Position numbers and translations under genes: made by a program. The notes beneath the pieces are model-generated. The model was given only the letters and a program-made list of their open reading frames with translations. It was not told the origin of the DNA and ran no database searches. 31,095 nt of DNA from a virus: positions 1-31,095 of the IMG/VR virus record IMGVR_UViG_3300043420_001157; one strand, 5' to 3'. Below, piece after piece: positions 10,338 to 28,863 of this stretch. The stretch's first letter is position 1. Each line of letters opens with the position of its first letter.

Positions 10338-10346
10338 ATAAATAGT
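10338..10346 (-). promoter_or_regulatory. Candidate late promoter motif upstream of sheath
   Basis: Coding-sense ACTATTTAT, 34 bases before the sheath ATG. Same 9-mer as upstream of the neck, adhesin, scaffold and fibre genes. Confidence 0.5.
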
Positions 10347-13728: not shown

Positions 13729-14442
13729 TCAAGTTGTTGGATGTGAATCTGGTGGTGTGAAGTTTTCTGTGTATCTCCCAACACCTTTTGTTATACGAAT
13801 GTCATCCATATAACCTTTATAGCCAACAGTTCCTGGGTTGCTTTCAGAACTGGTACCAAAGAAAAAACGACCGTTGTTTGATGGAATTGTAATATTGGTG
13901 TTGAGTGCTATTATATGCTTTGTTCCATTTACAAAATAATACCAATCATTACCATTTCTTACGAGTGCAAGATGAACCCATTCACCTGCAGGTATTGAAA
14001 ATGATGGATAAAAGATCCAACTAGCAGCAGAATTAGGTATGTATATGTTTATGTTATATGTTTCGGCATTCGGTCGTGAAATATAAGACAATAAACCATA
14101 TGTAAGTTCATCTGGTCTTTTGGCAAAGAATCTTCTTTGATTACCAGTGAAATCTGGTTTCATCCACATTTCAAGAGTAAAATCTTCTGCACCAAAGTTC
14201 AAGCCATCACTATTGTCAACAGCTATATAATCGCTGGTTCCATCAAAATAAGCACTTGAACCACCATATTTACTATCTGCAGTGCTTATTTTTGCACCAT
14301 CATATGTGGTTATGTTTAGATTGTTGTTGCTACTGTCTGTAAATACAGTGCTGTTGTTGGCACCGTCTGCTTTGATCAGCAATGATACACTGCTGAAATA
14401 AGGATCTGCCGGGCCGGATGGTGATTCTCTATAAAAAAACAT
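13729..14442 (-). CDS. LamG-like surface protein, cassette E
   Basis: A 237-residue protein with leader MFFYRESPSGPADPYFSNV-type start and a single concanavalin/LamG-like domain: the SLLIKADGANNSTVFTDSSN entry, GGSSAYFDGTSDYIAV, FTLEMWMKP, EWVHLALVRNGNDWYYFVNG, and the closing GYMDDIRITKGVGRYTENFT. These are the strands of the Laminin_G_3 type jelly roll, common on phage fibres and decoration proteins that bind glycans. There is no signal peptide or membrane segment. The gene is a single-gene unit with AGGAG eight bases before ATG, a promoter-like motif and its own terminator. The end, PPDSHPTT, is shared with cassette D. Binding partner unknown. Confidence 0.82.
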   Translation of the reverse strand: MFFYRESPSGPADPYFSSVSLLIKADGANNSTVFTDSSNNNLNITTYDGAKISTADSKYGGSSAYFDGTSDYIAVDNSDGLNFGAEDFTLEMWMKPDFTGNQRRFFAKRPDELTYGLLSYISRPNAETYNINIYIPNSAASWIFYPSFSIPAGEWVHLALVRNGNDWYYFVNGTKHIIALNTNITIPSNNGRFFFGTSSESNPGTVGYKGYMDDIRITKGVGRYTENFTPPDSHPTT

Positions 14443-14480
14443 TTTTATTTCTCCTGTCTTTGTAGGACACTTATAATGTT

Positions 14481-14489
14481 ATAAATAGT
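14481..14489 (-). promoter_or_regulatory. Candidate late promoter motif upstream of cassette E
   Basis: Coding-sense ACTATTTAT 38 bases before the ATG, followed by AACATTATAAGTG as in the other cassettes. Confidence 0.5.
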
Positions 14490-14507
14490 TATAAATAATA
14501 ATAAAAG

Positions 14508-14533
14508 AAACCCACCATATTTCAGGTGGGTTT
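14508..14533 (-). terminator. Terminator of adhesin cassette D
   Basis: Same AAACCCACC / GGTGGGTTT hairpin with 8-base loop and CTTTTATTATTA tail as after cassette E. Confidence 0.85.
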
Positions 14534-14553
14534 GTCAGTTTATTTATAGTTTA

Positions 14554-15249
14554 TCAAGTTGTTGGATGTGAATCTGGTGGTGTGAAGTTTTCTGTGTAGC
14601 GGGCTATTCCTTTAGTTACTCGTAGGTCGTCAATGTATCCGGCAAGAGAGTAAAGATTATCCAGCGTGACGCCGTTGCTAAAGCTTCCGATGCTTACCAC
14701 ATTCGTGCTATTAGCAAAGCCTCCTGATGCAGTAAACGTAGATGCATCTTGAATGCCATTAACGAAGAACCGTATGGTACTGCCAGAGCGGGTAACAGCA
14801 ACATGCGTCCAAGTATTTGCAGAAACAAGCGTACTTGTGCCCTGAATACCGACGTCCGTGGCAGTTCCAATTTTGTACGCCAAATACGGCTTACCGTTAT
14901 CGACTCTGAATGAGAAAGAAGACGGCGACCAGTGGGAGATTATTGAGCGAGCGCCCGCCGTGTTAGTCATGTAGACCCAGGCTTCAATAGTAAAGTCGCC
15001 ATCAAACGTGAATGCGTTATTATCAGCCAGAAATAAACCGCTGCCACCGTCGAAATAAGCACTTGAACCACCATATTTACTTTGGGTAGTGCTAATTTTT
15101 GTATTGCCGATCCTTGAGATGGCAAGATTGTTGTTGCTACTGTCTGTAAATACAGTGCTGTTATTGTCACCATCTGCTTTGATCAATAATGATACATTAC
15201 TGAAATAAGGATCTATTGGGCCATCTGTTGCTTCACTATAAAAAAACAT
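14554..15249 (-). CDS. LamG-like surface protein, cassette D
   Basis: A 231-residue protein, leader MFFYSEATDGPIDPYFSNV, one LamG-like domain (GGSSAYFDGGSGLFLAD, FTIEAWVYMTN, NTWTHVAVTRSGSTIRFFVNG, and the closing GYIDDLRVTKGIARYTENFT). Compared with cassette E the ends match nearly base for base, while the centre (about 14610-15050) is clearly richer in GC and uses different codons, for example GCG, GAC and CGG-type codons rare in neighbours. This suggests that the domain core came from elsewhere by recombination inside conserved flanks. Single-gene unit with its own terminator and the standard ribosome binding site. Likely glycan-binding; target unknown. Confidence 0.82.
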   Translation of the reverse strand: MFFYSEATDGPIDPYFSNVSLLIKADGDNNSTVFTDSSNNNLAISRIGNTKISTTQSKYGGSSAYFDGGSGLFLADNNAFTFDGDFTIEAWVYMTNTAGARSIISHWSPSSFSFRVDNGKPYLAYKIGTATDVGIQGTSTLVSANTWTHVAVTRSGSTIRFFVNGIQDASTFTASGGFANSTNVVSIGSFSNGVTLDNLYSLAGYIDDLRVTKGIARYTENFTPPDSHPTT

Positions 15250-15287
15250 ATTTATTTCTCCTGTCTTTGTAAGACACTTATAATGTT

Positions 15288-15296
15288 ATAAATAGT
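15288..15296 (-). promoter_or_regulatory. Candidate late promoter motif upstream of cassette D
   Basis: Coding-sense ACTATTTAT 38 bases before the ATG of cassette D. Confidence 0.5.
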
Positions 15297-15314
15297 TATA
15301 AATAATAATAAAAG

Positions 15315-15340
15315 AAACCCACCATATTTCAGGTGGGTTT
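15315..15340 (-). terminator. Terminator of adhesin cassette C
   Basis: AAACCCACC / GGTGGGTTT hairpin with T-rich tail, identical to those of cassettes D and E. Confidence 0.85.
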
Positions 15341-15350
15341 GTCAGTTTAT

Positions 15351-17426
15351 TTATAGAGCATCAGGAGGTGTGAAGTTTTCTGTATATCTCGCAACACCTT
15401 TTGTTATACGGAAATCATCGATGTAGCCGTTGAAATCGTAGGTATAGCCGGAGTATACTGTCCGCCCGATGGTCAGCGCATTCGGATTTGTTATACTCTG
15501 GTTATTTATATTTCCGGATGCAACGATAGTTCCATTGAGGAATAGGCGCATCAAAGCTCCTTGCCTAGAAACGGCAACATGATGCCAGACGCCCTGTGCT
15601 ATGGCTCCTGCATAGTCGAAGTACCAAGATGTGCCTGAAACATAGTTCGCAAATAAGATGCCAGTTCCAGTAGCTGTACTGTCGCCCATTATAAAAAGTC
15701 CCATGCCAGTGATTGTACCTGATGACGGGTATGTGGCAGTTAGTGCTGCGATACGTCGATTCATATTGTCAAGAGGTGAGTTACCTGCGACGTAGAACCA
15801 GCACTCAATCGTGAAGTCACCGGTTCCAAAATCAAGCTGTGGACTTGCTGGACTTGATAGGTAGTCTCCAGTGCCATCAAAAGATACGCTGGAGCCGCCA
15901 AACTTGCTCTGCTCGGTGCTGATCTTGGCATTTCCGACTGTTGTCAAGATAAGATTCTTCGCGCTGTCCACGGCACCAGCATTAGCGAAATTTGCCAGCA
16001 GCTTCGTGTTAGCGACTGCCGTAGTCGGGCTGGTCGGGACCGAGAAGTTACCAGTATAAAGTGCTGTACCGTTGACTATTCTCAGGTTTGAGATGTGTCC
16101 TTTTAGGGAGGGCGAGGAAAGTGCATTTCCACGACCAATATATAGAATGCCGCTGGCGTCGTTGTATGATCCTGATACAGTAGCGGTTGCGTCAACTACG
16201 CCATTGACAAATAATCTTACCGTCGTACCAGTTCGTGATACCGCAACATGTGTCCAAGTATTTGGGATTAGCGTAGTCGCACCAGTAGTGGGAATAACCG
16301 AGGTTCCAATTCCATGGAGATGAGATAACTTACCGGTACTCGTTACTTGTACTAGAAATGAGCGGTTAGTAGTTGTATTATTTGGCCAATGAGCGACTAT
16401 GGCCTGGGTAACAGTTGTCGTTTCTAAGTATACCCAAGCATCAATTGTGAAATCTCCGGCAAATGTCCAATCATTGTTATCAGCCAGCGTCAGATAATCT
16501 GTTGTTCCGTTGAAGTATCCACTTCCTAGCTCAGAAGTAGTAACCAGATTTGTGTCTGCGAACGGACCGTATGCGGACACGGTCGGAGTACCCTGCTGGA
16601 CAGTGCAGCTATAGTTATTTGGACCGTTGTCTTTTAGGCGGTTATCCTGACATACCAGCAAGACAGTTCCGGTGATCGCCGTCAGCGGAGATGCAGAAGG
16701 CGTAAAGGAATCTGTATAAACTGCTGTGTTTGTTATACGAACATTAGACAGATGGCAGTTTGTACGGCCATAGTCGCCGCCTGTGCTATTATTTGTTCCG
16801 CCGCCGACAGTGACGTTGTACGCAGTACTAGAATTAAGTGCGGTTGCAAATACCTCTGTGCTTTGTAAAACGCCATCTACAAAGATAATATACGTGGTGC
16901 CTTGTTTTACGGCAGCGCAATGATGCCATCTGTCGTCATCTACACGAGATGTTGAAAAAAACAGTTTTACTTGATTAGTGCTATGATATACTCCAAGAAA
17001 AAATTTACCAACATTTTCACCAGTATGCGACACGCCGGACCACCATACGTCTGAGGAGGTGGTATTCCACGCAGTCTTTCCTACGACCGCTGACCATGCA
17101 GAGGACGAACTTCCTTTGAACCAGAACTCCGCAGTAAAGTTTTCTCCAATGTTCCCGGTACTGGTAGTACCATTGACAAAGAAACTGTTGGCAAAATAAC
17201 TTGTTCTTACTGGATGATACGTGGACCACGCCCCGTTCTGTCTTGAAAACGGGCTAAAGCTGCCCTGTGTTGTTGTACCAAAGCGTGTGATAGCCAAACC
17301 GGAAGGCCCGCTGTCTACAAACTCGTTATTGGTTGAGTTGTTCGCAGCATCGCCTTCTAGCAGCAGGGATACGTAACTCAAGTATGGATCTGTTGGTTCA
17401 TCTGTTGCTTCACTATAAAAAAACAT
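15351..17426 (-). CDS. Triple LamG-like surface protein, cassette C
   Basis: A 691-residue protein, about three times the size of the other LamG cassettes. Leader MFFYSEATDEPTDPYLSYV, then three LamG-like domains at about residues 20-250, 295-475 and 475-690. Each has the W-x-H-x-A-(V/A) strand (DDRWHHCAAVKQ, NTWTHVAVSRTG, GVWHHVAVSRQG) followed by F-(V/L)-(D/N)-G, and a closing SN-(V/L)-RI or DDFRITKG segment. The first domain differs most. The interior is markedly richer in GC than the flanks, whereas the start and the end (FTPPDAL) match cassette A, so the body looks imported. Own promoter-like motif, AGGAG and terminator. Probably a multivalent glycan-binding decoration or fibre protein. 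Confidence 0.82.
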   Translation of the reverse strand: MFFYSEATDEPTDPYLSYVSLLLEGDAANNSTNNEFVDSGPSGLAITRFGTTTQGSFSPFSRQNGAWSTYHPVRTSYFANSFFVNGTTSTGNIGENFTAEFWFKGSSSSAWSAVVGKTAWNTTSSDVWWSGVSHTGENVGKFFLGVYHSTNQVKLFFSTSRVDDDRWHHCAAVKQGTTYIIFVDGVLQSTEVFATALNSSTAYNVTVGGGTNNSTGGDYGRTNCHLSNVRITNTAVYTDSFTPSASPLTAITGTVLLVCQDNRLKDNGPNNYSCTVQQGTPTVSAYGPFADTNLVTTSELGSGYFNGTTDYLTLADNNDWTFAGDFTIDAWVYLETTTVTQAIVAHWPNNTTTNRSFLVQVTSTGKLSHLHGIGTSVIPTTGATTLIPNTWTHVAVSRTGTTVRLFVNGVVDATATVSGSYNDASGILYIGRGNALSSPSLKGHISNLRIVNGTALYTGNFSVPTSPTTAVANTKLLANFANAGAVDSAKNLILTTVGNAKISTEQSKFGGSSVSFDGTGDYLSSPASPQLDFGTGDFTIECWFYVAGNSPLDNMNRRIAALTATYPSSGTITGMGLFIMGDSTATGTGILFANYVSGTSWYFDYAGAIAQGVWHHVAVSRQGALMRLFLNGTIVASGNINNQSITNPNALTIGRTVYSGYTYDFNGYIDDFRITKGVARYTENFTPPDAL

Positions 17427-17464
17427 TTTTATTTCTCCTGTCTTTGTAGGACACTTATAATGTT

Positions 17465-17473
17465 ATAAATAGT
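17465..17473 (-). promoter_or_regulatory. Candidate late promoter motif upstream of cassette C
   Basis: Coding-sense ACTATTTAT 38 bases before the ATG, here preceded by CAGATTTATAAA as in cassettes A and B. Confidence 0.5.
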
Positions 17474-17495
17474 TTTATAAATCTGTAAAAAAAAG

Positions 17496-17519
17496 AACCC
17501 ACCATATTTCAGGTGGGTT
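17496..17519 (-). terminator. Terminator of glycine-rich cassette B
   Basis: AACCCACC / GGTGGGTT stem with the same TGAAATAT loop, then TTCTTTTTTTTAC in coding sense. Confidence 0.87.
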
Positions 17520-17524
17520 TATAA

Positions 17525-18187
17525 TCAGGCTATTTGATATCTAACTATTACTATACCAGAACCGCCGACGCCTCCTGACTTTGTAAAACCAGAGCTATCT
17601 CGTTGACCACCGCCACCGCCGCCGCCAGTATTTACCTGACCGTTGCCACCAGACCATCCTGCATAACTTCTACCACCCCCACCTAATCCTCCAAGATAGC
17701 CACCACCTCTTGCACCACCACCAGCATAATATTTAGTTGTTCCATCTATTGAAGATTGTAGGCCATTAATTGTGCCAGCAGCACCGACACCATCAATTGG
17801 TGTTCTTGAGGAACCTTTCGCTAGGCCACCCGATGCAGTAATAGAGGAAAACGAAGAAGCATTTCCATTTCCCGTTGTAGCAGAACCAACAACAACGGAA
17901 AGTTCTTGTGCGTTTATTTGTAATGAACCAGTAAGCATTTGTCCGGCGTCACCACCATTACCTATATAATAGCCGGAGATGCCCGGTTCGAAGCCGGAAC
18001 CATAAAATCCACTACCACCGGCACCACCGGCACCAACAACCAGATACTCAACTGTTCCACCGGTTTCAATAGTAAATGTACCATTAGTTGTGAATGTATG
18101 AACGCGATAAGTTTTATCACCTACTGTTATATCACTTATTGTTCCACCAGTGGCAACAACAAATGGCGATTCACTATAAAAAAACAT
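17525..18187 (-). CDS. Glycine-rich surface/adhesin protein, cassette B
   Basis: A 220-residue protein that shares only the leader MFFYSE with the LamG cassettes. After a strand-rich lead (DKTYRVHTFTTNGTFTI) comes TVEYLVVGAGGAGGSG, then a long run of glycine-rich loops (GGGARGGGYLGGLGGGG and others) and the closing GGVGGSGIVIVRYQIA. The 'VEYLVVGAGG ... GSGIVIVRY' frame is the known phage glycine-rich domain; glycine-rich modules of this kind form receptor-binding tips such as the polyglycine sandwiches of T-even adhesins. It occupies the same cassette slot, with the same ribosome binding site, motif and terminator, so it is an alternative body in a shared frame. Function as adhesin is inferred. 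Confidence 0.8.
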   Translation of the reverse strand: MFFYSESPFVVATGGTISDITVGDKTYRVHTFTTNGTFTIETGGTVEYLVVGAGGAGGSGFYGSGFEPGISGYYIGNGGDAGQMLTGSLQINAQELSVVVGSATTGNGNASSFSSITASGGLAKGSSRTPIDGVGAAGTINGLQSSIDGTTKYYAGGGARGGGYLGGLGGGGRSYAGWSGGNGQVNTGGGGGGGQRDSSGFTKSGGVGGSGIVIVRYQIA

Positions 18188-18225
18188 CTTTATTTCTCCT
18201 GTCTTTGTAGGACTTGTATGATGTT

Positions 18226-18234
18226 ATAAATAGT
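18226..18234 (-). promoter_or_regulatory. Candidate late promoter motif upstream of cassette B
   Basis: Coding-sense ACTATTTAT 38 bases before the ATG of the glycine-rich gene. Confidence 0.5.
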
Positions 18235-18255
18235 TTTATAAATCTGTAAAAAAAG

Positions 18256-18279
18256 AACCCACCATATTTCAGGTGGGTT
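18256..18279 (-). terminator. Terminator of adhesin cassette A
   Basis: AACCCACC / GGTGGGTT stem with 8-base loop followed by TTCTTTTTTTACAG in coding sense. Confidence 0.87.
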
Positions 18280-18290
18280 TGTTGGTTTAT

Positions 18291-19025
18291 TTATAGAGCA
18301 TCAGGAGGTGTGAAGTTTTCTGTGTATCGCGCAATGCCTTTTGTAATTCTAATGTCATCTAAATAACCAGAATAAAAAGAAGTGAGATAATTACCATCAT
18401 AATCTGAGCATGAACCAAAAACAAATGGAGAATTATTTGATGGAATAGTACCAGAATTAATTCCAATTAAATATTTTATTCCATTTATATAAACAGAAAA
18501 TTCGTTTCCATTTCTAATAAAAGCTAAATGTGTCCAAGTATTTATAGGTACATATGCGTTATTTATATAGCCATTTGCAATACCCCAAGTTGAACCATCA
18601 AATGAAGCATAAAAAGCCACATTATATCTACTATTGACACTATCATATGTAAAGTAACTCAAACAGCCACCATATATATGGACAGAAGCTCTTTTACCAA
18701 ATAGCCATTTTTCAGCACCATTATCAGCTGGAGATGCATATACCCACATTTCTATGGTAAAATTACTATTACCAAAATTTAAACCATCATTTGATGGGGC
18801 ACTTATAATATCTCCATTTCCATCAAAATAAATACTTGAACCACCAAATTTACTTTGAGCTGTGCTTATTATTGTATTACCGCTTCTTGAAATTGTAAGA
18901 TTATTGTTGCTGCTATCAATAAAAGATGTACTGTTATTTGTTCCATCACCTTTTAATAGTAATGATACATTTGAAAAATATGGATCTGAATTTACTGCTA
19001 TTGAATTTTCACTATAAAAAAACAT
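18291..19025 (-). CDS. LamG-like surface protein, cassette A
   Basis: A 244-residue protein, first of the array after the capsid gene. Leader MFFYSENSIAVNSDPYFSNV, then one LamG-like domain: SLLLKGDGTNNSTSFIDSSN, GGSSIYFDGNGDIISAP, FTIEMWVYAS, NTWTHLAFIRNGNEFSVYING and closing GYLDDIRITKGIARYTENFT, ending PPDAL. Unlike cassettes C and D its base composition is as AT-rich as the surrounding genome, with many AAT and ATA codons, so it looks long resident. AGGAG lies eight to nine bases upstream, and the transcript is insulated from the capsid gene by two hairpins. Likely a glycan-binding virion surface protein; no experimental target can be named from sequence. Confidence 0.82.
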   Translation of the reverse strand: MFFYSENSIAVNSDPYFSNVSLLLKGDGTNNSTSFIDSSNNNLTISRSGNTIISTAQSKFGGSSIYFDGNGDIISAPSNDGLNFGNSNFTIEMWVYASPADNGAEKWLFGKRASVHIYGGCLSYFTYDSVNSRYNVAFYASFDGSTWGIANGYINNAYVPINTWTHLAFIRNGNEFSVYINGIKYLIGINSGTIPSNNSPFVFGSCSDYDGNYLTSFYSGYLDDIRITKGIARYTENFTPPDAL

Positions 19026-19151: not shown

Positions 19152-20819
19152 TCAACCAAGAAGGTCTTGGACAACGACGAGGCCATACATATCTGGTCTA
19201 ACCATTTTCTTGGCGTAGCGTGTCATCACACCTTTTCTTGGAACGAAATCTTCGGTTCCAAAGATGGTTGGTGTAACTTGTAGTGGTACATATGGAGCAT
19301 ATACGAATCCACTTTCGAGGAAACTATTGCCTTTACGACCAACAAGGATCAGGTTGCGTGGGAAGTATGGGTCAACAAAGACATCCCATTTCTTGCTGAG
19401 TGAACCTGCTTTGACAGCACCGATTGTGCCCTTGGCATCATCATGAACAACATTGGCACGGAAGCCACTGGTGAATTCAAGGATGTTGGCAACTTCTGGA
19501 CCACAAACAACAAAGTTTGCGCCACCACGAAGTGTTTTACGGTGAATTGCAGCACTTACATCGTTGATTGTTTCAACGAGGGTTTCGTACCACATACTGA
19601 CATTGCCGGTGAAGTCAGCACCATTTGGATCATTTACACCACTGACAATCGCAAGACCGGTTGTACGATCTACGAATTTACCTGGACGACGTGACCAGTA
19701 TAGTGTTGCAGCGGTTGCACCTTTGACAAGTTCACCAAGCATTTCTTGATCAATTTCAAGACCAATCTGTTCTGACAGAATTGAAGTGAGTTCAACTTCT
19801 GCATCAAGATTGTGGTATGCATTGAGGTCTTGACCAAGTTCTGGTGTCCATTTTGCCTTGAGTTTGCGGGTCTTGGCAGTTACAGCAACACTGTCAACTT
19901 TGATGTCAATTTCTGGAATGTTTGCTTCACCTTCAAAGGTTACCTGTGAGGCAACAATTGCACCTAGTGAATCAGCAACATTACCAAGAACATCGGCAAT
20001 TGGCCAAGTTAGAGGACGAGCGCCAGTTGTCATAGTTTCTGCGTCAGTACCAACAACAACTAGTTTGAGGTGAGTATATGTATCGCCACCTACTGCGTTT
20101 CCGTCAGCGTCTGATTTAGAGGTTAGACGACGAACAAGTGAACCACTTTCAAAAGTACCTGAAACAGCAATTAGATCGCTGCGATCAAGACTTGTTAGAT
20201 CGCTTGCTGAAACAACGAAAACTGCTACAGATGCACTAACGGCAATATCTGGATCAAAGCGACAGTGCTTGTCAAGAACAAGATCGCCAGTGCCAAATTT
20301 ACCGCTATCAATTAGTGTGCCGGTAACAGTTGCACTGCCGGTTGCTAGTGAATAGCCGTTGTTTAGAGCGCGGAGTGAGTTTTCAGCATTTAGACCGGTA
20401 AGATCAACGCCACCGGTGAGTTGTGAACCAACAACGCCACCACCGAATAGTGATGAGCCACTTACTGCACCTGAACGATCACGATCAAACTTGAAGTCAA
20501 GGAAGAAGATTAGACCGCTTGGGAGACTCATTGGTTGAACGCTTACGAGTTCATTGGCAATAAGACTGCCGAATACACGGCGGACGATTGGGAATGCAAC
20601 CGCAGCGAAACCTTCTACTTCACCTCCTGACATTGTGTTCGCTTCACGTAGTAGTTCTTGTGCTTGATTTTCTAATAGACGAGCCATTGAAGATTTGGCA
20701 CGATCATCGCCCATACCTTCGAGTAGACCTGTTTCTGACCATTTGCTTAGTAGAGCGCCGCCTTCTTTTTCAAGGTCACGCTTTACGACGCCTTCTGTTA
20801 ATTTTTTGATAACTGACAT
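19152..20819 (-). CDS. Major capsid protein (gp23-like)
   Basis: A 555-residue HK97-fold capsid protein of the T4 type (T4 gp23 has 521). Conserved stretch: ARLLENQAQELL near residue 46, then PIVRRVFGSLIANELVSVQP and MSLPSGLIFFLDF (75-110), and C-terminal GVMTRYAKKMVRPDMYGLVV. A likely prohead protease site is Leu-Arg-Glu59/Ala60, close to T4's Glu65/Ala66 cleavage of the gp23 propeptide. AGGAG lies eight bases before the ATG. The gene is followed by two hairpins, so its message ends before the adhesin array. Codon use is GC-richer than average here, fitting very high expression. Confidence 0.93.
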   Translation of the reverse strand: MSVIKKLTEGVVKRDLEKEGGALLSKWSETGLLEGMGDDRAKSSMARLLENQAQELLREANTMSGGEVEGFAAVAFPIVRRVFGSLIANELVSVQPMSLPSGLIFFLDFKFDRDRSGAVSGSSLFGGGVVGSQLTGGVDLTGLNAENSLRALNNGYSLATGSATVTGTLIDSGKFGTGDLVLDKHCRFDPDIAVSASVAVFVVSASDLTSLDRSDLIAVSGTFESGSLVRRLTSKSDADGNAVGGDTYTHLKLVVVGTDAETMTTGARPLTWPIADVLGNVADSLGAIVASQVTFEGEANIPEIDIKVDSVAVTAKTRKLKAKWTPELGQDLNAYHNLDAEVELTSILSEQIGLEIDQEMLGELVKGATAATLYWSRRPGKFVDRTTGLAIVSGVNDPNGADFTGNVSMWYETLVETINDVSAAIHRKTLRGGANFVVCGPEVANILEFTSGFRANVVHDDAKGTIGAVKAGSLSKKWDVFVDPYFPRNLILVGRKGNSFLESGFVYAPYVPLQVTPTIFGTEDFVPRKGVMTRYAKKMVRPDMYGLVVVQDLLG

Positions 20820-20843: not shown

Positions 20844-20859
20844 GGTATCATTTGATACC
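20844..20859. promoter_or_regulatory. Inverted repeat spanning scaffold stop codon
   Basis: GGTATC-AAAT-GATACC in coding sense, containing the TGA stop of the scaffold gene and lying 25 bases before the capsid ATG. No T-run follows, so it is more likely an mRNA processing or stability hairpin than a terminator. Confidence 0.4.
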
Positions 20860-22203
20860 GGCTAATTTCAACCATCGATCTTTATTTGGATCACCTGGTT
20901 GTTCTACTTGTTTGTGTGGCAAACGAAATGAACTCTTTTTACTAATCGCTTCATTCAGTGATTTTGGTGAACGTTCTTCTTTTGCATGACCACCCACCGA
21001 ACTGATCAGTGTTTCATATATCGTTTTTGCTTCACTAACAGAATCAGCCCTGGAAACAGCTTCGACAATTTGTGTTTTTTGTCGCTCATTCAAGGAGGCG
21101 CTTTTCAAGATCTGATTTTCATAAAACAGTCTGGCATTCAGTAGATTTACTTCTTCAAGTTTCTTGAATGCCACAGACATTTGTTCTATGGTGGAAGAAA
21201 ATGTTTTGTTCTCTTCCAAGAGTTTGTTTATTTTTGCATCTTTGCTCTCAACTTCTTTTAGGAGAACTTGTGATGCTTTTAGTAGTTCGTTTGTTTTTGA
21301 TTCTTTTATTTGTTTTTTATCTGCTGGAGGAGCAGCCCTGGCTATTTTTTGTTGTTTTGCAGAAAGTTTCTTTTCTTCTGCCATCGCTAATGGACCTGCA
21401 GAGGTTTGTTTTTTGTTCTTATCTACAAGTGGCATACTTGGATCACCAGTCATTTCATAATCATTCATCAAATTGCTTATTTCTTCTGACGAAAGTCCAT
21501 CAACAAACTCTTCGCCAAATGCTACTTTTAGTGCATCTTTGAACTCCTCAAAAACTGGCTTTTCTTGTTGTTGTTCTTTGTCAAAAGAATACTGTGTACT
21601 TCCTGCTTCGAAGTTTGGAAGTCCTTCCATTTCACTTAGTGCTTCATCCAAATTTACTTCGGTAATTTCTTCTTCAACGACATCTTCTTCAAGTTCAATA
21701 CTTTCAAGTTCAATACTTTCAAGTTCAAGGTTTTCTGTTAGACCGGTTCCGCCCATGGCTGGTGGCATTTGTTCTATACCCATAGAACCTGGCTCTTCTT
21801 CTTTATCGCCTATTTGTAGCTGATCAGCGAGATCGGCAAGATTTATTTCTAATGAAACTTCTTCATCGTCATCAGGGCAAGGACAAAGTTTTTCTCCATC
21901 TGTTGCCGCTAGCGGAATATCTGCTGCAGTTCCAGCAACATAACCTTTGTTTGATTCATCTGGTGGAGCACCACCAAAGTCAGTTATTGGCATATCACTT
22001 TGGCCACCGGCAAGAGCATCAGTTGGTGATGGCGTATCTGCACCCGGCTCTTCTTCTTCGTCTTGTTCCAAAAGTTTTTCAACTGCTTCTTTTACTTGTG
22101 GAGCAAACTTTTCTAATAGGGTTGCTTGTGCGCTTTTGTATGCTGAATCTCGTAGTGCTTGTGCATCTACTATTGCTTGTTCTAATAGCTTTGAACTGCT
22201 CAT
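20848..22203 (-). CDS. Prohead core scaffold protein (gp22-like)
   Basis: I start this 451-residue protein at the ATG at 22203 (MSSSKLLEQ), eight bases after AGGAG; an in-frame TTG sits just before it. The N-terminal helix, a very acidic centre (residues 50-220, including CPCPDDDEE and a LESIE repeat) and a helical C-terminal core (KASQVLLKEVESKDAKINKL, then LNARLFYENQILKSASLNE, VEAVSRADSVSEAKTIYETL) are typical of scaffold cores of T4-like proheads, which the prohead protease degrades to acidic peptides. It lies immediately before the capsid gene, as gp22 does before gp23. The C-terminal residues DRWLKLAGIK are basic and may contact capsid protein. Confidence 0.82.
   Translation of the reverse strand: MSSSKLLEQAIVDAQALRDSAYKSAQATLLEKFAPQVKEAVEKLLEQDEEEEPGADTPSPTDALAGGQSDMPITDFGGAPPDESNKGYVAGTAADIPLAATDGEKLCPCPDDDEEVSLEINLADLADQLQIGDKEEEPGSMGIEQMPPAMGGTGLTENLELESIELESIELEEDVVEEEITEVNLDEALSEMEGLPNFEAGSTQYSFDKEQQQEKPVFEEFKDALKVAFGEEFVDGLSSEEISNLMNDYEMTGDPSMPLVDKNKKQTSAGPLAMAEEKKLSAKQQKIARAAPPADKKQIKESKTNELLKASQVLLKEVESKDAKINKLLEENKTFSSTIEQMSVAFKKLEEVNLLNARLFYENQILKSASLNERQKTQIVEAVSRADSVSEAKTIYETLISSVGGHAKEERSPKSLNEAISKKSSFRLPHKQVEQPGDPNKDRWLKLAGIK
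21691..21728. repeat. 15-bp tandem repeat in scaffold gene
   Basis: AAGTTCAATACTTTC occurs twice in a row plus a partial third copy, encoding Leu-Glu-Ser-Ile-Glu units in the acidic region of the gp22-like protein. Confidence 0.9.
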
Positions 22204-22235
22204 CAAAAATACTCCTAAAAATACGCTTTACTGAA

Positions 22236-22953: not shown

Positions 22954-25026
22954 TCAGACTGCGAAGAATGGACTTGCGTGCCATTCACCGTCTTCACAGA
23001 AGTACCATTTCTGGCCTTGTGGGAAGGCAGCTACAGCGTCATCAGCGGCATCAAGATAGAACATGTGGCCGTTGTTTGCTGATTGATCACCACTGGTGTA
23101 AGCGGCTGGGATTGTTTCAGCAGTAAACTTAGGCGCTTGGAACTTACCGTTTACTGTGATTTGATCCGCAGAACTGTCACCGAGTGTTGCATTACCATTT
23201 ACAGTTAGGTTGCCAGCGATGGTTACATCATCTGGTAGACCGATTGTAAAGGTGTTTTCTGCACCAAGAGCGAATGAACCGCTTACTGTAACTTCATTGG
23301 CTGTGCCATTGATTACGAGTGAAGTTAGTTCAACACTGTCAAGGCGTGCATCAAGTGAATCATCACCAGCAACACGACTTGATTCTTCAGTTGATAGTGC
23401 TGTGGCTAGGCTTGCATCTGCACTTTCGCGAGCAGAAGTTTCACCTGAGAGAGCATTTTCAAGACTGGTGTCAGCATTTTCAAGACTTGTTACTGCACTT
23501 ATACGACTTGATGCTTCACCTGAAACAGCAGTTGAAAGAGCACTTGCAAGACTTGCGTCGGCGATTGATACAACAGCTTCAATACTTGCAACATTGCTTG
23601 CAATGGTGCTTGTTACTGTTGTGGCAAAGTTTGGATCGTCACCAAGAGCCGCAGCAAGTTCGTTGAGAGTGTCAAGAAGTTCTGGAGCACTATCAACAAG
23701 GGCTGCTACTGCTGAATCAGTGTAGCTGTTTGCTTCAGCAACAACTGATGCATCAGCTGAAATTCTTGCAGATGTTTCATTTGAAAGAGCACTTGCAAGG
23801 CTTCCGTCAGCACTTGCACGAATACTCTCTTCGCCACTGATACGAGTATCAATGGACGCCAGATCGGTTGAAAGATCTGTTGTGATAGCATTTTCAAGAC
23901 TTGTTACTGCACTTTGACGTGCTGAAATTTCAGTGCTTACTTTGGCGTCAAGACTTTCTTCTACTGAAGTTGCTCTTGATGTTTCGGTGCTGATTTGGTT
24001 TGCAAGACTTTCATCACCACTTATACGACTAGAAACTTCAGTTGAAACTGATGTTGAAAGAGAACTTGCGAGACTTTCGTCTGCACTTGCACGAGCTAAT
24101 GCTTCTGTTGATACACTGTTTGATAGAGCAGTTTGAACTGAATCAACTTTACTATCTAGTGAGCCTTCGGCAGCAGTAGCGCGGGATTCTTCGCTACTGA
24201 TTTGTGCTGCGAGACTTGCTTCTGCAGATTCAGCACGAACTTCTTCTGCACTAACAAGAGCGGCAACACTGTCATCGCCAGCAACACGACTTGATACTTC
24301 AGTTGATAGTGCTGTGTCTAGGCTTGCATCACCACTTGCACGGGCACTTTCTTCAGTTGATAGACGAACAGTTAGACTGCTGTCTGCTGAAGCGCGAACA
24401 CTTTCTTCTGCTGTTGCGCGTGCATCAATACTTGCAACACTAGCTGTTAGTTCATTGACTTTTGAGGTCAGGTCGCCAATACCAGAAACAAGTTCAGATG
24501 CTGCTTGACCGTCGCCATCAAGGAATTCTTGAATGTCTTTGATTGTGCTTAGTGTGCCAGAAAGAACACCATCGCCACCAACGAGAGTATCTATTCTGAG
24601 ATCAACTGCTGCATCAAGACTTGCAACTGCGCTTTCACGGGCTGATACTTCAGCACTGAGAGCGTTGTCAAGACTTGTGTCTGCTGCAGCGCGTGCACTT
24701 TCTTCTGTTGATACGCGAGCATCAATAGATTCAAAGTTAGCACTTTGACCGCTTGACAGACTATCAAGTATTGCTTGAACTGTGCTGCCATCGCTTGCAA
24801 GAACATTACCAGCTTGGACTTGGGCTAGTGATGCTGTACCGTTTGCATCAACGTGAAGAACTTTGCCTTCACCACCGGCTGAACCGGAAAGATCAAGAAC
24901 AAGTGTACCACTGACTCGTAAATCAACTGGCTTGTCTTGACCGAATACTACTGTGCCGTTTTCCATGATTTTAGCAACAACTGTGCTAGAACCTGAAATA
25001 ACTGCAAAACCTTTTTGTTTTGACAT
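22954..25026 (-). CDS. Long coiled-coil fibre protein
   Basis: A 690-residue protein starting at the ATG at 25026 (MSKQKGFAVISGSSTVV) with TAGGAGAT upstream; the ten longer in-frame residues begin before the ribosome binding site. Residues about 90-560 are degenerate repeats of the form STEESARASADxSLxxxLS, an Ala/Ser/Glu-rich pattern expected to make a long trimeric coiled coil, broken by a globular patch near 145-185 (DIQEFLDGDGQAASELVSGI) and another near 400-440. The tail has FTIGLPDDVTIAGNLTVNG, common in phage structural proteins, and ends with a module (KWYFCEDGEWHASPFFAV) shared with the gp14-like neck protein. Likely a whisker or side fibre; attachment site unknown. GC-richer codons suggest high expression. 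Confidence 0.8.
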   Translation of the reverse strand: MSKQKGFAVISGSSTVVAKIMENGTVVFGQDKPVDLRVSGTLVLDLSGSAGGEGKVLHVDANGTASLAQVQAGNVLASDGSTVQAILDSLSSGQSANFESIDARVSTEESARAAADTSLDNALSAEVSARESAVASLDAAVDLRIDTLVGGDGVLSGTLSTIKDIQEFLDGDGQAASELVSGIGDLTSKVNELTASVASIDARATAEESVRASADSSLTVRLSTEESARASGDASLDTALSTEVSSRVAGDDSVAALVSAEEVRAESAEASLAAQISSEESRATAAEGSLDSKVDSVQTALSNSVSTEALARASADESLASSLSTSVSTEVSSRISGDESLANQISTETSRATSVEESLDAKVSTEISARQSAVTSLENAITTDLSTDLASIDTRISGEESIRASADGSLASALSNETSARISADASVVAEANSYTDSAVAALVDSAPELLDTLNELAAALGDDPNFATTVTSTIASNVASIEAVVSIADASLASALSTAVSGEASSRISAVTSLENADTSLENALSGETSARESADASLATALSTEESSRVAGDDSLDARLDSVELTSLVINGTANEVTVSGSFALGAENTFTIGLPDDVTIAGNLTVNGNATLGDSSADQITVNGKFQAPKFTAETIPAAYTSGDQSANNGHMFYLDAADDAVAAFPQGQKWYFCEDGEWHASPFFAV
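23350..24790. repeat. Internal repeats in long fibre gene
   Basis: Near-identical stretches recur within the coiled-coil region, for example about 23355-23420 and 24268-24330 (both encode a segment close to LSTE(E/V)SSRVAGDDS). They may change fibre length by recombination. Confidence 0.75.
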
Positions 25027-25085
25027 GTAAAGATATCTCCTAATAAAGAAACACAAGACGACAAACAGGTGCCGTCAGTGTATTG

Positions 25086-25150: not shown

Positions 25151-25336
25151 TTAATAATATTCAGCAAAACCCGCCCAAATACCTTCAAATTCTTTTTCAC
25201 TTTCAACAACAAGAATTAGATTTCTTGATTGTGCTAATGCTTTTTTATCTGCCAACTGTGATTCTTTACAAATATAATTACGTGTTTCACCTGTTTCTGG
25301 TAATGTTATTGAATATCTTATATAGTATTCTTCCAT
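25151..25336 (-). CDS. Small conserved-looking protein of unknown function
   Basis: A 61-residue protein beginning MEEYYIRYSITLPETGETRN. Its ATG overlaps the stop of the 257-residue gene (TAATG), with GAGGTG upstream, so it is translationally coupled. The N-terminal half reads as two beta strands, the second half as a helix (LADKKALAQSRNLILVVESE) and an acidic aromatic end. I recognise no family. Position directly after one fibre protein and before the long fibre suggests a fibre-associated or chaperone role, which is inference only. Confidence 0.7.
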   Translation of the reverse strand: MEEYYIRYSITLPETGETRNYICKESQLADKKALAQSRNLILVVESEKEFEGIWAGFAEYY

Positions 25337-26109
25337 TATGACACCTCACGATATCTAAAAAAGCTATTTGCTTTGATTATAGCAAGAGCACCAGTTTCAC
25401 TAGCAAGTGTAATGCTCCAAGGAATAGCAGCTGTATTGCTGTTCGTCACTAGCAAACAGTGTATTATAGCTAAATAACTGTGTGAAGTAGTTGGTAGACC
25501 GGTCGACGCAGCATTTTCCGTTGTTCTTGCACCTTGATTTCTAAAAGTTAATTCAGTATTACTACTTGGAGAAGATATTTGTGATGCACCGTCAGACACA
25601 TTATTGCTCCATTGAATACCCGGCCTTGGTCCGGAACTATTAGTATTGGTTCTAATCAATAATCTGCCTTCTATTTCGTATACTTTATTAGGACTAGGAA
25701 AGAAAGAAAGACCAGTGACTGGTACATTGTCTTGTAAGTATGTAGAAAAATCTGAAGAACGTTTGATGTATGTCCACGGATCTCCACCTGCGCCACCATC
25801 AGACGATATAACACCATTTGATATTGTTATATTTGTTCCGGCACTAAACTGTGCTCTAACATCATTTGTAAAATTTGAAATATTAGAAGCAGTTATGCTG
25901 TGGAGTTGTGAACCATCTCCCTTGAAAGAAGAACTAATAATAATATCTTCAGCATTTATATCTTCGTTGAAGGTTGTGTTTGCGTTTATAACAAGAGAAT
26001 CAGTAAATAAATCGCCTATAACTGTGTCACCAGCAATAGACAAGTTGCCAGGAATATTTATCCCGGCAGAACTTGATATTTCGCTGTCTTTTATTATTAT
26101 TTTTGCCAT
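25336..26109 (-). CDS. Fibre or capsid surface protein
   Basis: A 257-residue protein. The N-terminal part (MAKIIIKDSEISSSAGINIP, then GNLSIAGDTVIGDLFTDSLV) carries the repeated 'G-N-L-x-(V/I)-x-G-(D/N)-x-x-(V/I)-G-D' strand motif typical of phage fibre shafts, and KGDGSQLHSITASNISNF resembles the linker before a tip domain in marine phages. The C-terminal 120 residues (VYEIEGRLLIRTNTNSSGPR to INTGALAIIK-type strands ending ANSFFRYREVS) form a separate beta-rich head, a candidate receptor-binding or decoration domain. The start has TAGGT five to six bases upstream. No LamG signature was seen. Confidence 0.68.
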   Translation of the reverse strand: MAKIIIKDSEISSSAGINIPGNLSIAGDTVIGDLFTDSLVINANTTFNEDINAEDIIISSSFKGDGSQLHSITASNISNFTNDVRAQFSAGTNITISNGVISSDGGAGGDPWTYIKRSSDFSTYLQDNVPVTGLSFFPSPNKVYEIEGRLLIRTNTNSSGPRPGIQWSNNVSDGASQISSPSSNTELTFRNQGARTTENAASTGLPTTSHSYLAIIHCLLVTNSNTAAIPWSITLASETGALAIIKANSFFRYREVS

Positions 26110-26149: not shown

Positions 26150-26353
26150 TCAATCTTCTTTTCCCGCTGCGGCCTTTTCTTTTTCCATAGCCCTTGCTTT
26201 TTGTCTACGCTTTGTATGAGCCTCCATAGAAGGTTTTACAAAGTATCTACGATCATATACTTGTTCTACTATTCTCATTTTCTTTGTTTTTTTGACAAAC
26301 TTTTTTATCATTTTTTCTACGCTGCCATCAACTTCGTCTAAACTTACTTTCAT
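26150..26353 (-). CDS. Phage-encoded ribosomal protein bS21 homologue
   Basis: A 67-residue basic protein that matches bS21 along its length: an N-terminal KVSLDEVDGSVEKMIKKFVKK (bacterial form: a short strand then a helix with the pattern E-x-x-x-x-x-F-K-R), then VEQVYDRRYFVKPSMEAHTK, aligning with the V-R-R-R-x-(F/Y)-x-x-K-P-(T/S)-x-x-(R/K) signature, and a basic C-terminal helix (RRQKARAMEKEKAA). Cellular bS21 is about 70 residues and helps mRNA binding on the 30S subunit; phage bS21 genes are known and may replace the host protein to favour phage messages. Strong GAGG site five to six bases before ATG. It lies among late structural genes, so it should be made late. Confidence 0.85.
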   Translation of the reverse strand: MKVSLDEVDGSVEKMIKKFVKKTKKMRIVEQVYDRRYFVKPSMEAHTKRRQKARAMEKEKAAAGKED

Positions 26354-26368
26354 TTTTTCCTCGTAATA

Positions 26369-26821
26369 TCAACCTATGTTGAACTTTTTCCCACCAAATA
26401 ATCTGCTTATATCAACGCCGGGATCGTTTGGTGATACTCCTCCAAGCGGGTTTGCTACTGTTTCTTGTATGGTAGCTGGTGCAGGAGTTGTTCCACGGAA
26501 GACATCAACTCCACCAACTTTCATTGATAAACTTTTACTGACTTGTTCGTTTTGTTTACGAAACTCATTGGTCATTTCTTGACGTTCACGCCTTATTTGC
26601 TCCATCAACTCATTATTGACTTGTGGATTGGCTTTTGTTGGCTGTGAAGCATTCGCTGCTTGTGCCTTGGTTGCCTCTGTAAGAACAGGAAGGGCGCCCT
26701 TCATAACTTCTTTTATAACACTGGATAAAAGACCGCCTTCAAGAAGTATTTCTTCAACGCTTTCTCGCACACACTCTTGAACTATTGGTTTTATTATTTC
26801 TTTTAGTTCGCTTTTTTTCAT
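26369..26821 (-). CDS. Probable prohead core protein
   Basis: A 150-residue protein starting in a four-base ATGA overlap with the prohead protease stop. The first 27 residues form an amphipathic helix (KKSELKEIIKPIVQECVRE) followed by Leu-Leu-Glu28/Gly29, which fits the (I/L)-x-E/(G/A/S) cleavage rule of T4-type prohead proteases. After an Ala/Gln/Asn-rich linker comes a helix (LMEQIRRERQEMTNEFRKQN) and a flexible Pro/Gly-rich end with VDISRLFGGKKFNIG. I do not know a named family. Size, place between protease and scaffold, and the cleavage site suggest an internal or core protein. Confidence 0.65.
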   Translation of the reverse strand: MKKSELKEIIKPIVQECVRESVEEILLEGGLLSSVIKEVMKGALPVLTEATKAQAANASQPTKANPQVNNELMEQIRRERQEMTNEFRKQNEQVSKSLSMKVGGVDVFRGTTPAPATIQETVANPLGGVSPNDPGVDISRLFGGKKFNIG

Positions 26822-27423
26822 TTTACACCTATAATGTCGTTTAGCAGGCGATTTATTCTATCTGATTTTGTAAAAATGTTAGGTGCTTTTTTGCTTTCTG
26901 AAAGGCTCATAAAAGCTCCACCTGTTGATGGTTCGCTTACAAAATCAAAACAAATAAGTTGAAAGTCATCTTCAACATAGGTTAGGCCACCACGCTCTCT
27001 TACACTACCAAGGCCACGACTTGATATGCCGAGCTTTACGCCACTCTCAACAAGAGACTTCAATATTTGACCTGATGGTGTTGATAAAACTTTTACTTTA
27101 CCCATTACATCTTTACCATTCCACCAAATGTCTGTAACAATATGTGAAGCATTTTTTAGATTTATAACACTTTCATCTGGATGGTCCAGTTCTCCAAGGG
27201 CACGATTTTCAGCAATAAGTTTTTTATAGTTTTCTACTTCTCTTCGCAGAACACTTTCTGGATATACACGACCATTGCCATTTTTAGCATCTGCTCTCTG
27301 TATAACGCCGGAAAGCATCATTCCGCCACTTTTGACAAAAGTTTTTTCTGCTTCTGTCAGTAAGTCCTGACATACACCGCCTTCACAGAGTTCAAAATAT
27401 TCACGAAGTAGAAACTGGCTCAT
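26818..27423 (-). CDS. Prohead maturation protease (gp21-like)
   Basis: A 201-residue serine protease of the T4 gp21 type (T4 gp21 has 212). I start at the ATG at 27423 (MSQFLLREYF), seven bases after AGGAG and overlapping the previous stop as ATGA. Recognisable parts: SGVIQRADAKNGNGRVYP (residues 38-55), the LGELDHPDES segment with likely catalytic His81, and VKLGISSRGLGSV with the Ser134/Ser135 nucleophile, then FDFVSEPSTGGAFM. It cleaves scaffold, core and capsid propeptides inside the prohead, and neighbouring proteins carry matching sites. The first 20 residues may themselves be removed by self-processing. Confidence 0.92.
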   Translation of the reverse strand: MSQFLLREYFELCEGGVCQDLLTEAEKTFVKSGGMMLSGVIQRADAKNGNGRVYPESVLRREVENYKKLIAENRALGELDHPDESVINLKNASHIVTDIWWNGKDVMGKVKVLSTPSGQILKSLVESGVKLGISSRGLGSVRERGGLTYVEDDFQLICFDFVSEPSTGGAFMSLSESKKAPNIFTKSDRINRLLNDIIGVK

Positions 27424-28466
27424 AATATAACTCCTGTTTTGGTGTATTGTTTCCAACTATTATAAAAATTTTTATAGTCTTTTGATTCTTGTATATTTTC
27501 GCGGTCGTATTCTGCACTCAAGATCATCTCTCTGAGTCTTGGATCGTTTGTATGTAATAATTTGTTATAAAGTCGTTGACTTATAGCTATTCTTCCATCT
27601 TGATATAGAGTTGTTATAATAAATTCAATTATTTTTTTATCAATCGTATTAGAAAAATGTTTTTTAGTCGACTTATATAAAGCATGTATATACCATTCTT
27701 CAATCCCAACTTGTTGAGCAGATGGAGCTTGTTGTCGGTTTTCATCTACTTTTTTTGCTGAAACATCTTTTGGAACTATGGTTGGATTAGATAAAATTCT
27801 ATTTTTTGATATAAGATATTTTAATACTGTATCAATACTATCACTATATTTTTGTTTTTCTTGTTCTGGTAGGTTTGTTGTTTTAAGTTTTTCAAAGAAT
27901 TTTGCTTGAATTCGATCAAATAATTTTTGATAGGATACACCATCTATTGATTTCTGCAGATCGCTAAGTTTATCGGCAACGCCTATAATTTTTGGTGCTT
28001 GTAATTGTTTTGGTATATTTCCAGATGGAGGAAGATCGCCTGATGGCTGAACGGTTTCTGGTGATTTTTGACTTGGTGGCAGTGCTTTTTGTTGAGAAGG
28101 AGGAAGTTTACGCTGTGTTCCTAAATCATATGTTCCAGTCGGAGCACTTGCTTGTTTATCTTGTGGCTCATCGGCATCAATATTACTCGGTTCTAATGAA
28201 CCTGTCTTCTTTATTGTAAGTCCGGTTTGTGCTTGTTGTTTTTCTGGTTCTTGTTCTGGTTTTTTTACTTGTTGCGCTGGTGGTTTATATCTAAAACCAG
28301 CAAATGCTTTGCCAACACCCTGTGAAGCATTTGGTTTTGGTTTTGTAAAACTTTTATAAAGGTCTTTTATTCTATCAAGAAAACCTTCACTCACCCCTTC
28401 TTCTTCAAGGAGTTTTATGGTTTCTTCTTGCAATATTTGATCAAACCTTTTATTTGAAAAAGACAT
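27420..28466 (-). CDS. Probable prohead core/internal head protein
   Basis: A 348-residue protein. The N-terminus (KRFDQILQEETIKLLEEEG then VSE27/GFLDRIKDLYKSF) resembles that of the next gene upstream, including an E27/G28-F at the same residue number. Residues 45-165 are a low-complexity Pro/Gln/Lys/Ser linker with many PPSQ and PSG motifs; 165-235 and 255-345 are helical domains, the latter holding EEWYIHALYKSTKKHF and ILSAEYDRENIQESKDYKNF. No family recognised. Direct coupling to the protease gene and the propeptide-like start suggest that it is packaged in the prohead and processed. AAGG stands before the ATG. Confidence 0.65.
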   Translation of the reverse strand: MSFSNKRFDQILQEETIKLLEEEGVSEGFLDRIKDLYKSFTKPKPNASQGVGKAFAGFRYKPPAQQVKKPEQEPEKQQAQTGLTIKKTGSLEPSNIDADEPQDKQASAPTGTYDLGTQRKLPPSQQKALPPSQKSPETVQPSGDLPPSGNIPKQLQAPKIIGVADKLSDLQKSIDGVSYQKLFDRIQAKFFEKLKTTNLPEQEKQKYSDSIDTVLKYLISKNRILSNPTIVPKDVSAKKVDENRQQAPSAQQVGIEEWYIHALYKSTKKHFSNTIDKKIIEFIITTLYQDGRIAISQRLYNKLLHTNDPRLREMILSAEYDRENIQESKDYKNFYNSWKQYTKTGVIL

Positions 28467-28479
28467 TTATAAAACCTTT

Positions 28480-28863
28480 TTATTCTGCTGCTCTGCCTCG
28501 GCGGCGCATTCCACCAACTGGTTCGTTGACGCGTGACTTACCAAATTGTGCAGAACTTTCTGGTGCTCCAGTTCCTTTTGGTGTCATTTTACTATACAGA
28601 CCTGCTACATCGTTTGATATTCTTGTTACTTGTAGACCAAGTTCTTTATTGTCTTGTTTTGAAGCAAGACCTCGTAGATCTCCAAGGTTTTTTTGAACTA
28701 TGTCAAGTTTCTTTTTTACATCATCATCTGTAACAAAGTCGCCAAATCTTGGTTGTTTACCAAGGAGTTTATCAAAGAAACCTTCTTCAAGTTCTCCTGC
28801 TGCCGTCATGGCATTGAGTTCTTCTTTGATTATTTTTTGTAGCTCTTCTTTTGTTATTTTCAT
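28480..28863 (-). CDS. Probable prohead core protein with cleavable N-terminus
   Basis: A 127-residue protein with an amphipathic N-terminal helix (KITKEELQKIIKEELNAMT) followed by Leu-Glu-Glu27/Gly28-Phe-Phe-Asp, a good (L/I)-x-E/G prohead protease site. The middle (DDVKKKLDIVQKNLGDLRGL, then ISNDVAGLYSK) is helical and the C-terminus (GMRRRGRAAE) is basic, as in DNA-contacting internal head proteins. No named family recognised. GAGG precedes the ATG by about nine bases, and a GC-rich hairpin lies some 25 bases further upstream. It is separated from the next gene by only 13 bases. Confidence 0.65.
   Translation of the reverse strand: MKITKEELQKIIKEELNAMTAAGELEEGFFDKLLGKQPRFGDFVTDDDVKKKLDIVQKNLGDLRGLASKQDNKELGLQVTRISNDVAGLYSKMTPKGTGAPESSAQFGKSRVNEPVGGMRRRGRAAE

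Follow-up and report, generated by a model that had tools for sequence, protein, structure and literature searches.

A bS21 gene in the head module of a T4-like phage

The window, i.e. the whole 31,095-base virus record that was analyzed, carries late genes of an uncultured T4-like phage, almost all of them on the minus strand. These genes encode the baseplate hub, tail tube, tail sheath, duplicated baseplate/fibre proteins, the capsid, a fibre-like protein, the ribosomal protein bS21, a protein that we call X, and a prohead protease. Among ribosomal proteins, bS21 is the one that phages carry most often. The genes of interest follow each other on one strand in the order prohead protease (gp21/S77), gene X, bS21, fibre genes, and major capsid protein (Table 1), and an S77 prohead protease followed by a gp23-type capsid gene is the arrangement of the T4-like head module (gp21-gp23). 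A sequence-only reading of this DNA had proposed a phage-borne bS21 inside the head gene cluster, and both the phage origin and the placement hold, with S77 and gene X upstream of bS21 and the 257-aa and fibre-like genes downstream. The S77 gene probably starts at 27423, behind an AGGAG site, instead of at 27456.

Table 1. Features around the bS21 gene of the window
Feature	Position	Strand	Basis
Major capsid protein (gp23 family)	19152..20819	-	PHROG 138 2.4e-67
452-aa gene preceding the capsid gene; by position only, a probable gp22 scaffold	20848..22206	-	T4 order; no PHROG match
Fibre-like protein	22954..25056	-	PHROG 1197/454 tail (fiber) protein
257-aa gene directly after bS21	25336..26109	-	weak bactofilin-like repeat match, PF04519 0.0026, below cut-off
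bS21 (rpsU-like) gene, 67 aa	26150..26353	-	PF01165, PHROG 21469, homologues L002-L015
15-nt gap between bS21 and gene X, holding the GAGG ribosome-binding site	26354..26368	-	sequence; pairing -5.9 kcal/mol
Gene X, 150 aa, uncharacterised family	26369..26821	-	family HMM; no PHROG/Pfam match over cut-off
Prohead core protease (T4 gp21, peptidase S77)	26818..27456	-	PF03420 3.1e-30; PHROG 207 2e-55

The capsid protein matches those of the uncultured huge phage LR756508, Flavobacterium phage immuto, and Microcystis phage Mel-JY01 at 48-52%. Two further genes of the head region (27420-28466 and 28480-28863) lack, like the 452-aa gene, any PHROG match, and the three are by their position probable prohead core/scaffold genes; the N-terminus of one of them resembles that of X (MKITKEELQKIIKEE). 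Elsewhere in the window, five related baseplate/fibre-type genes lie in tandem (13729-19025), each starting with MFFY behind a near-identical leader (TACAAAGACAGGAGAAATAAA-ATG), which points to a recent duplication carrying its own promoter.

The 67-residue protein belongs to the bS21 family

The protein is basic, with a computed pI of 10.0 and 20 K/R against 11 D/E residues. Its assignment to bS21, previously made from the letters only, was confirmed by profile search, since the match to Pfam Ribosomal_S21 (PF01165; E=1.4e-6, 28.3 bits) passes the gathering cut-off of 27, as do those of eight relatives. PHROG 21469 'ribosomal protein S21' also matches (E=0.0023), and the score against the NCBIfam equivalog TIGR00030 (E=1e-6, 28.4 bits) is half a bit below the naming cut-off of 28.95. 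In a phmmer search of the PDB, all eight matches were bS21 chains, each weak alone (best E=0.044). The core RRYFVKPS at residues 35-42 fits R-x-x-F/Y-x-K-P-S; the core motif announced earlier is thus present, while the pattern then given for it had one 'x' too many. The AlphaFold model (pLDDT 87.5, pTM 0.47) predicts helices at 12-26, 28-36, and 41-66, and Foldseek returned with it a single match, to the mitochondrial ribosome chain Bt (bS21m; E=9.5, VIA Z 3.9), which is too weak to be relied on.

Close homologues in IMG/VR retain the frame at 64-94% identity, and dN/dS against clade members is mostly 0.04-0.14, reaching 0.30 against the most distant one. Because the frame is kept and dN/dS is low, the reading frame goes beyond chance; the gene is under purifying selection and is a genuine phage-borne member of the bS21 family.

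bS21 is co-directional with S77 and capsid genes in diverse phages

We retrieved 103 loci by bS21 sequence alone and then sought S77 and capsid genes in them with profiles built from the window, its 124-kb relative G001, immuto, Mel-JY01, T4, and Pelagibacter phage HTVC008M. In 90 of the 103 loci, S77 was found upstream of bS21 with the same orientation, often at a spacing of 413-498 nt, and bS21 was co-directional with S77 wherever the latter was found; the capsid gene, where in reach, lay downstream on the same strand. Nine of the 13 loci devoid of S77 are on contigs that start no more than 2.8 kb from bS21 and end before the S77 site. The other four (L157, L159, L160, and L161) encode a phage bS21 of another type (MKAWRKMKKKL...), and neither S77 nor a capsid gene was recognised in their vicinity. 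Over 47 non-redundant loci, the divergence of bS21 correlates with that of S77 (Mantel r=0.46, 0/2000 permutations), as would fit a long co-inheritance of the two sequences. In the relative G001, a 231-aa protein (L019:10198-10893) has a just sub-threshold match to Pfam ATLF, a metallopeptidase-type domain, over its C-terminal 40 residues only.

The proximity of bS21 to prohead protease and capsid genes is already published, and the window phage adds another case: in a survey of 900 phages, a prohead protease lies near bS21 in 310 (Chen 2022, PMC9723584). The Bacteroidetes lake phages of that study resemble the window in that genes for terminase, portal, prohead protease, and capsid lie a few genes away from bS21, and late expression was shown there (PMC9723584). 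Their bS21, however, is on the opposite strand from the structural genes and has an aromatic residue 54 (PMC9723584), whereas that of the window is co-directional, lies downstream of S77 and X, and combines Arg54 with gene starts rich in Shine-Dalgarno (SD) sites. A Flavobacterium bS21 query led to loci (L163-L182) that match the published description, with bS21 antiparallel to S77 and on its upstream side, Tyr or His at position 54, and SD-less starts.

Individual phages resemble the window to different degrees. Mel-JY01 (PP395634, cultured) carries S77, a gene of ~155 aa, an annotated RpsU, and the capsid gene on one strand, but its bS21 is only 34% identical to that of the window and its middle gene has no match to the X family. 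LR756508 (484 kb) has bS21 ~2 kb before the capsid gene on the same strand but differs by its SD-less gene starts, and X was not recognised in it. HTVC008M is likewise a T4-like myovirus with bS21, but the gene is at 91 kb, ~16 kb from the capsid gene; pelagimyophage bS21 was described as outside any gene cluster (PMC7029224), and the bS21 of LR756511 is also located elsewhere. Flavobacterium phage immuto is a near relative by its S77 and capsid proteins (~48%), but it is SD-less and bS21 is absent from its whole genome, as from that of RM378. Eighteen contigs close to immuto (L266-L283), obtained in a scan anchored on S77, have SD-poor starts, and neither bS21 nor X was found on them, L274 being cut short after S77.

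The conservation of the head-module position despite very diverse bS21 sequences could also mean that the fold, as a basic protein, now works solely in the head core or in binding DNA. We hold such an exaptation to be very improbable, as the R-x-x-F/Y-x-K-P-S core and the bS21 helix layout persist, and as the HTVC008M bS21, encoded away from head genes, still enters ribosomes (PMC6375957).

Gene X accompanies bS21 and resembles a processed head protein

The X family, which has no match in PHROG, in Pfam over the cut-off, or in the cultured-phage collection, was found by HMM in 92 of the 103 bS21 loci, usually at most 30 nt from bS21. Scanning with X alone gave 450 relatives, the best 80 of which were examined for their neighbours. 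S77 lies upstream of X in 79 of these best 80, and bS21 is on the strand of X in all 78 among them that have enough sequence to be tested, mostly directly downstream. The S77-anchored scan also yielded 36 loci that carry bS21 between S77 and capsid without X, and the idea that X is obligatory for bS21 was therefore rejected. The pairing is thus one-sided: bS21 occurs without X, while no X without bS21 was seen among the 78 testable loci. In a limited literature search, we did not find this family and its one-sided pairing described.

The cleavage rule of the T4 protease gp21 is (L/I)-x-E. The N-terminus of X is a helical segment ending in an LLE|GG-type motif that is near-universal among members, and its C-terminal half is disordered; since the motif resembles the gp21 rule, X is probably a processed head protein. 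The structure model of X (pLDDT 68, pTM 0.24) shows no confident fold.

Packaging of phage bS21, together with late action, has been proposed (Chen 2022, PMC9723584), and here bS21 could enter the prohead alongside X and reach the cell together with the DNA, acting as infection begins. The position of the gene, with the S77 protease and X upstream of it and scaffold/capsid genes downstream, would suit this idea, as would the gp21-like motif near the N-terminus of nearly all X proteins. However, bS21 itself has by inspection an ordinary N-terminal layout with no conserved targeting propeptide, and an LxE near its N-terminus, considered as a packaging signal, was rejected since other lineages do not keep it. 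We thus regard packaging as improbable. A functional partnership of X with bS21, in which X loads phage bS21 onto the 30S subunit, evicts host bS21 from it, or brings bS21 into the prohead to be delivered when infection starts, is likewise a doubtful proposal.

Shine-Dalgarno use, residue 54, and the host

The bS21 gene was said to stand behind a strong GAGG site. GAGG is indeed present 5 nt before the ATG, but its strength is ordinary, the predicted pairing ranking 16th of 29 window genes. Extended SD pairing under -13 kcal/mol underlies rpsU autoregulation in Bacteroidota (PMC9976891), and with -5.9 kcal/mol this type of control is not seen at the window bS21. A 4-nt SD match precedes 88% of the window gene starts against 40% in shuffles, the same count giving 78% for T4, 5% for immuto, and 10% for Cellulophaga phage phi14:2, figures to be read comparatively as start codons were assigned mechanically. 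The window phage is thus SD-using.

In Flavobacterium johnsoniae, Tyr54 of bS21 stacks on the anti-SD tail, and ribosomes lacking bS21 or its C-terminus prefer strong-SD mRNA (PMC9976891). The corresponding residue is an arginine in the window protein, invariant in its clade, and position 54 is aromatic in none of the 47 non-redundant loci with the window arrangement; the window bS21 is therefore not of the Bacteroidia type, defined by an aromatic residue 54 and anti-SD sequestering. A rule of two types, aromatic 54 with SD-less starts and basic 54 with SD-rich starts, fitted the first sets of loci and was broken by a third, S77-anchored sample, in which 19 loci combine aromatic 54, a co-directional bS21, and SD-rich starts. 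On these 19 SD-using contigs (within L285-L341), the bS21 gene itself apparently has no SD site.

Since SD sites are used throughout and residue 54 is Arg, a Bacteroidia host is unlikely. It had been considered because the nearest protease and capsid proteins include those of Flavobacterium phage immuto, and both SD use and Arg54 weigh against it. The expectation that the closest bacterial bS21 could name the host failed: a scan of GTDB genomes with the bS21 and capsid queries found no relative, and the protein has diverged too far for a donor to be named from it. The genes of G001 yield no taxonomic pointer to the host either.

The earlier reading had also suggested that the phage bS21 favours virion mRNAs with strong SD sites, altering the ribosome so that these outcompete host mRNAs. 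The SD-rich starts of the phage would agree with such selectivity, as would Arg54, which is not expected to make the stacking contact with the anti-SD tail that Tyr54 makes in F. johnsoniae, and the strong-SD preference of F. johnsoniae ribosomes without bS21. However, SD sites, near-universal at late genes, also precede early genes of G001 (50% vs 30% expected), where they are less frequent, and thus are no mark of virion mRNAs; the site of bS21 is ordinary, and a phage like this one probably infects a host that already relies on SD sites. Furthermore, bS21 is found in this region in SD-less phages as well, and one group joins aromatic 54 to SD-rich starts. These comparisons do not support the suggestion, and we consider selectivity unlikely.

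Timing of bS21 expression

A motif, ACTATTTAT / ACTATTTA(T), occurs on the coding strand 33-67 nt upstream of late-gene starts, at 10345, 13663, 14488, 15295, 17472, 18233, 19072, 22243, and 25093 (minus), and ACTATTTAT precedes fibre, scaffold/capsid, and sheath genes. Of 194 upstream regions in the clade, 33 contain the 7-mer CTATTTA, against none of the coding controls, and TATAAATA, a near reverse complement of the ACTATTTA(T) motif, occurs 24 times against 2.9 expected. The ACTATTTA(T) motif is a possible phage late promoter. As the coding strand carries no ACTATTTAT between 25.1 and 31.1 kb, bS21 has no such element of its own; it is probably read from an upstream promoter together with S77 and X, and this unit may be timed differently from the ACTATTTAT-preceded genes. 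Late expression of bS21 is plausible, judged by its position and by transcript data for related arrangements, namely lake phages in which bS21 is transcribed with structural genes (Chen 2022, PMC9723584).

A putative role of phage bS21 on host ribosomes

The family membership of the protein, the purifying selection on its gene, its co-directional synteny with S77, X, and capsid genes, the SD-rich starts, and the non-aromatic residue 54 are all directly supported. We infer late expression, 30S incorporation, and a benefit to phage translation, and the explanation that we favour, and hold to be fairly probable, is that bS21 is made with the head proteins and then joins host 30S subunits to keep phage initiation going. 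Probably co-transcribed with S77 and X, it would accumulate during virion protein synthesis, join host 30S subunits or replenish their bS21 at the platform, the site at which bS21 adjoins the anti-SD, and there maintain initiation on phage transcripts. Incorporation has a precedent in the HTVC008M bS21, which enters E. coli 70S ribosomes (Mizuno et al. 2019, PMC6375957). In that single published assay, however, translation by ribosomes bearing the phage protein was ~5% of wild type (PMC6375957), which could mean inhibition instead of help and counts against our explanation, as do the lone weak Foldseek match of the predicted structure and the lack of ACTATTTAT around the bS21 unit.

The same in vitro value, ~5% of control protein, could be taken to indicate host shut-off, the phage bS21 displacing host bS21 and lowering general translation while another factor spares phage mRNAs. 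But the assay was cross-species, in E. coli, and a brake co-expressed with head proteins would harm the phage at its peak protein need, so that we give shut-off little credence. The presence of bS21 in SD-using and SD-less phages alike speaks against an explanation by SD selection alone. Whether phages remodel ribosomes during virion building can be tested on concrete material, namely the block of S77, X, and bS21 on one strand, which extends across highly diverse T4-like phages, and Mel-JY01 as its cultured example; X is a specific, unstudied gene to include in such tests.
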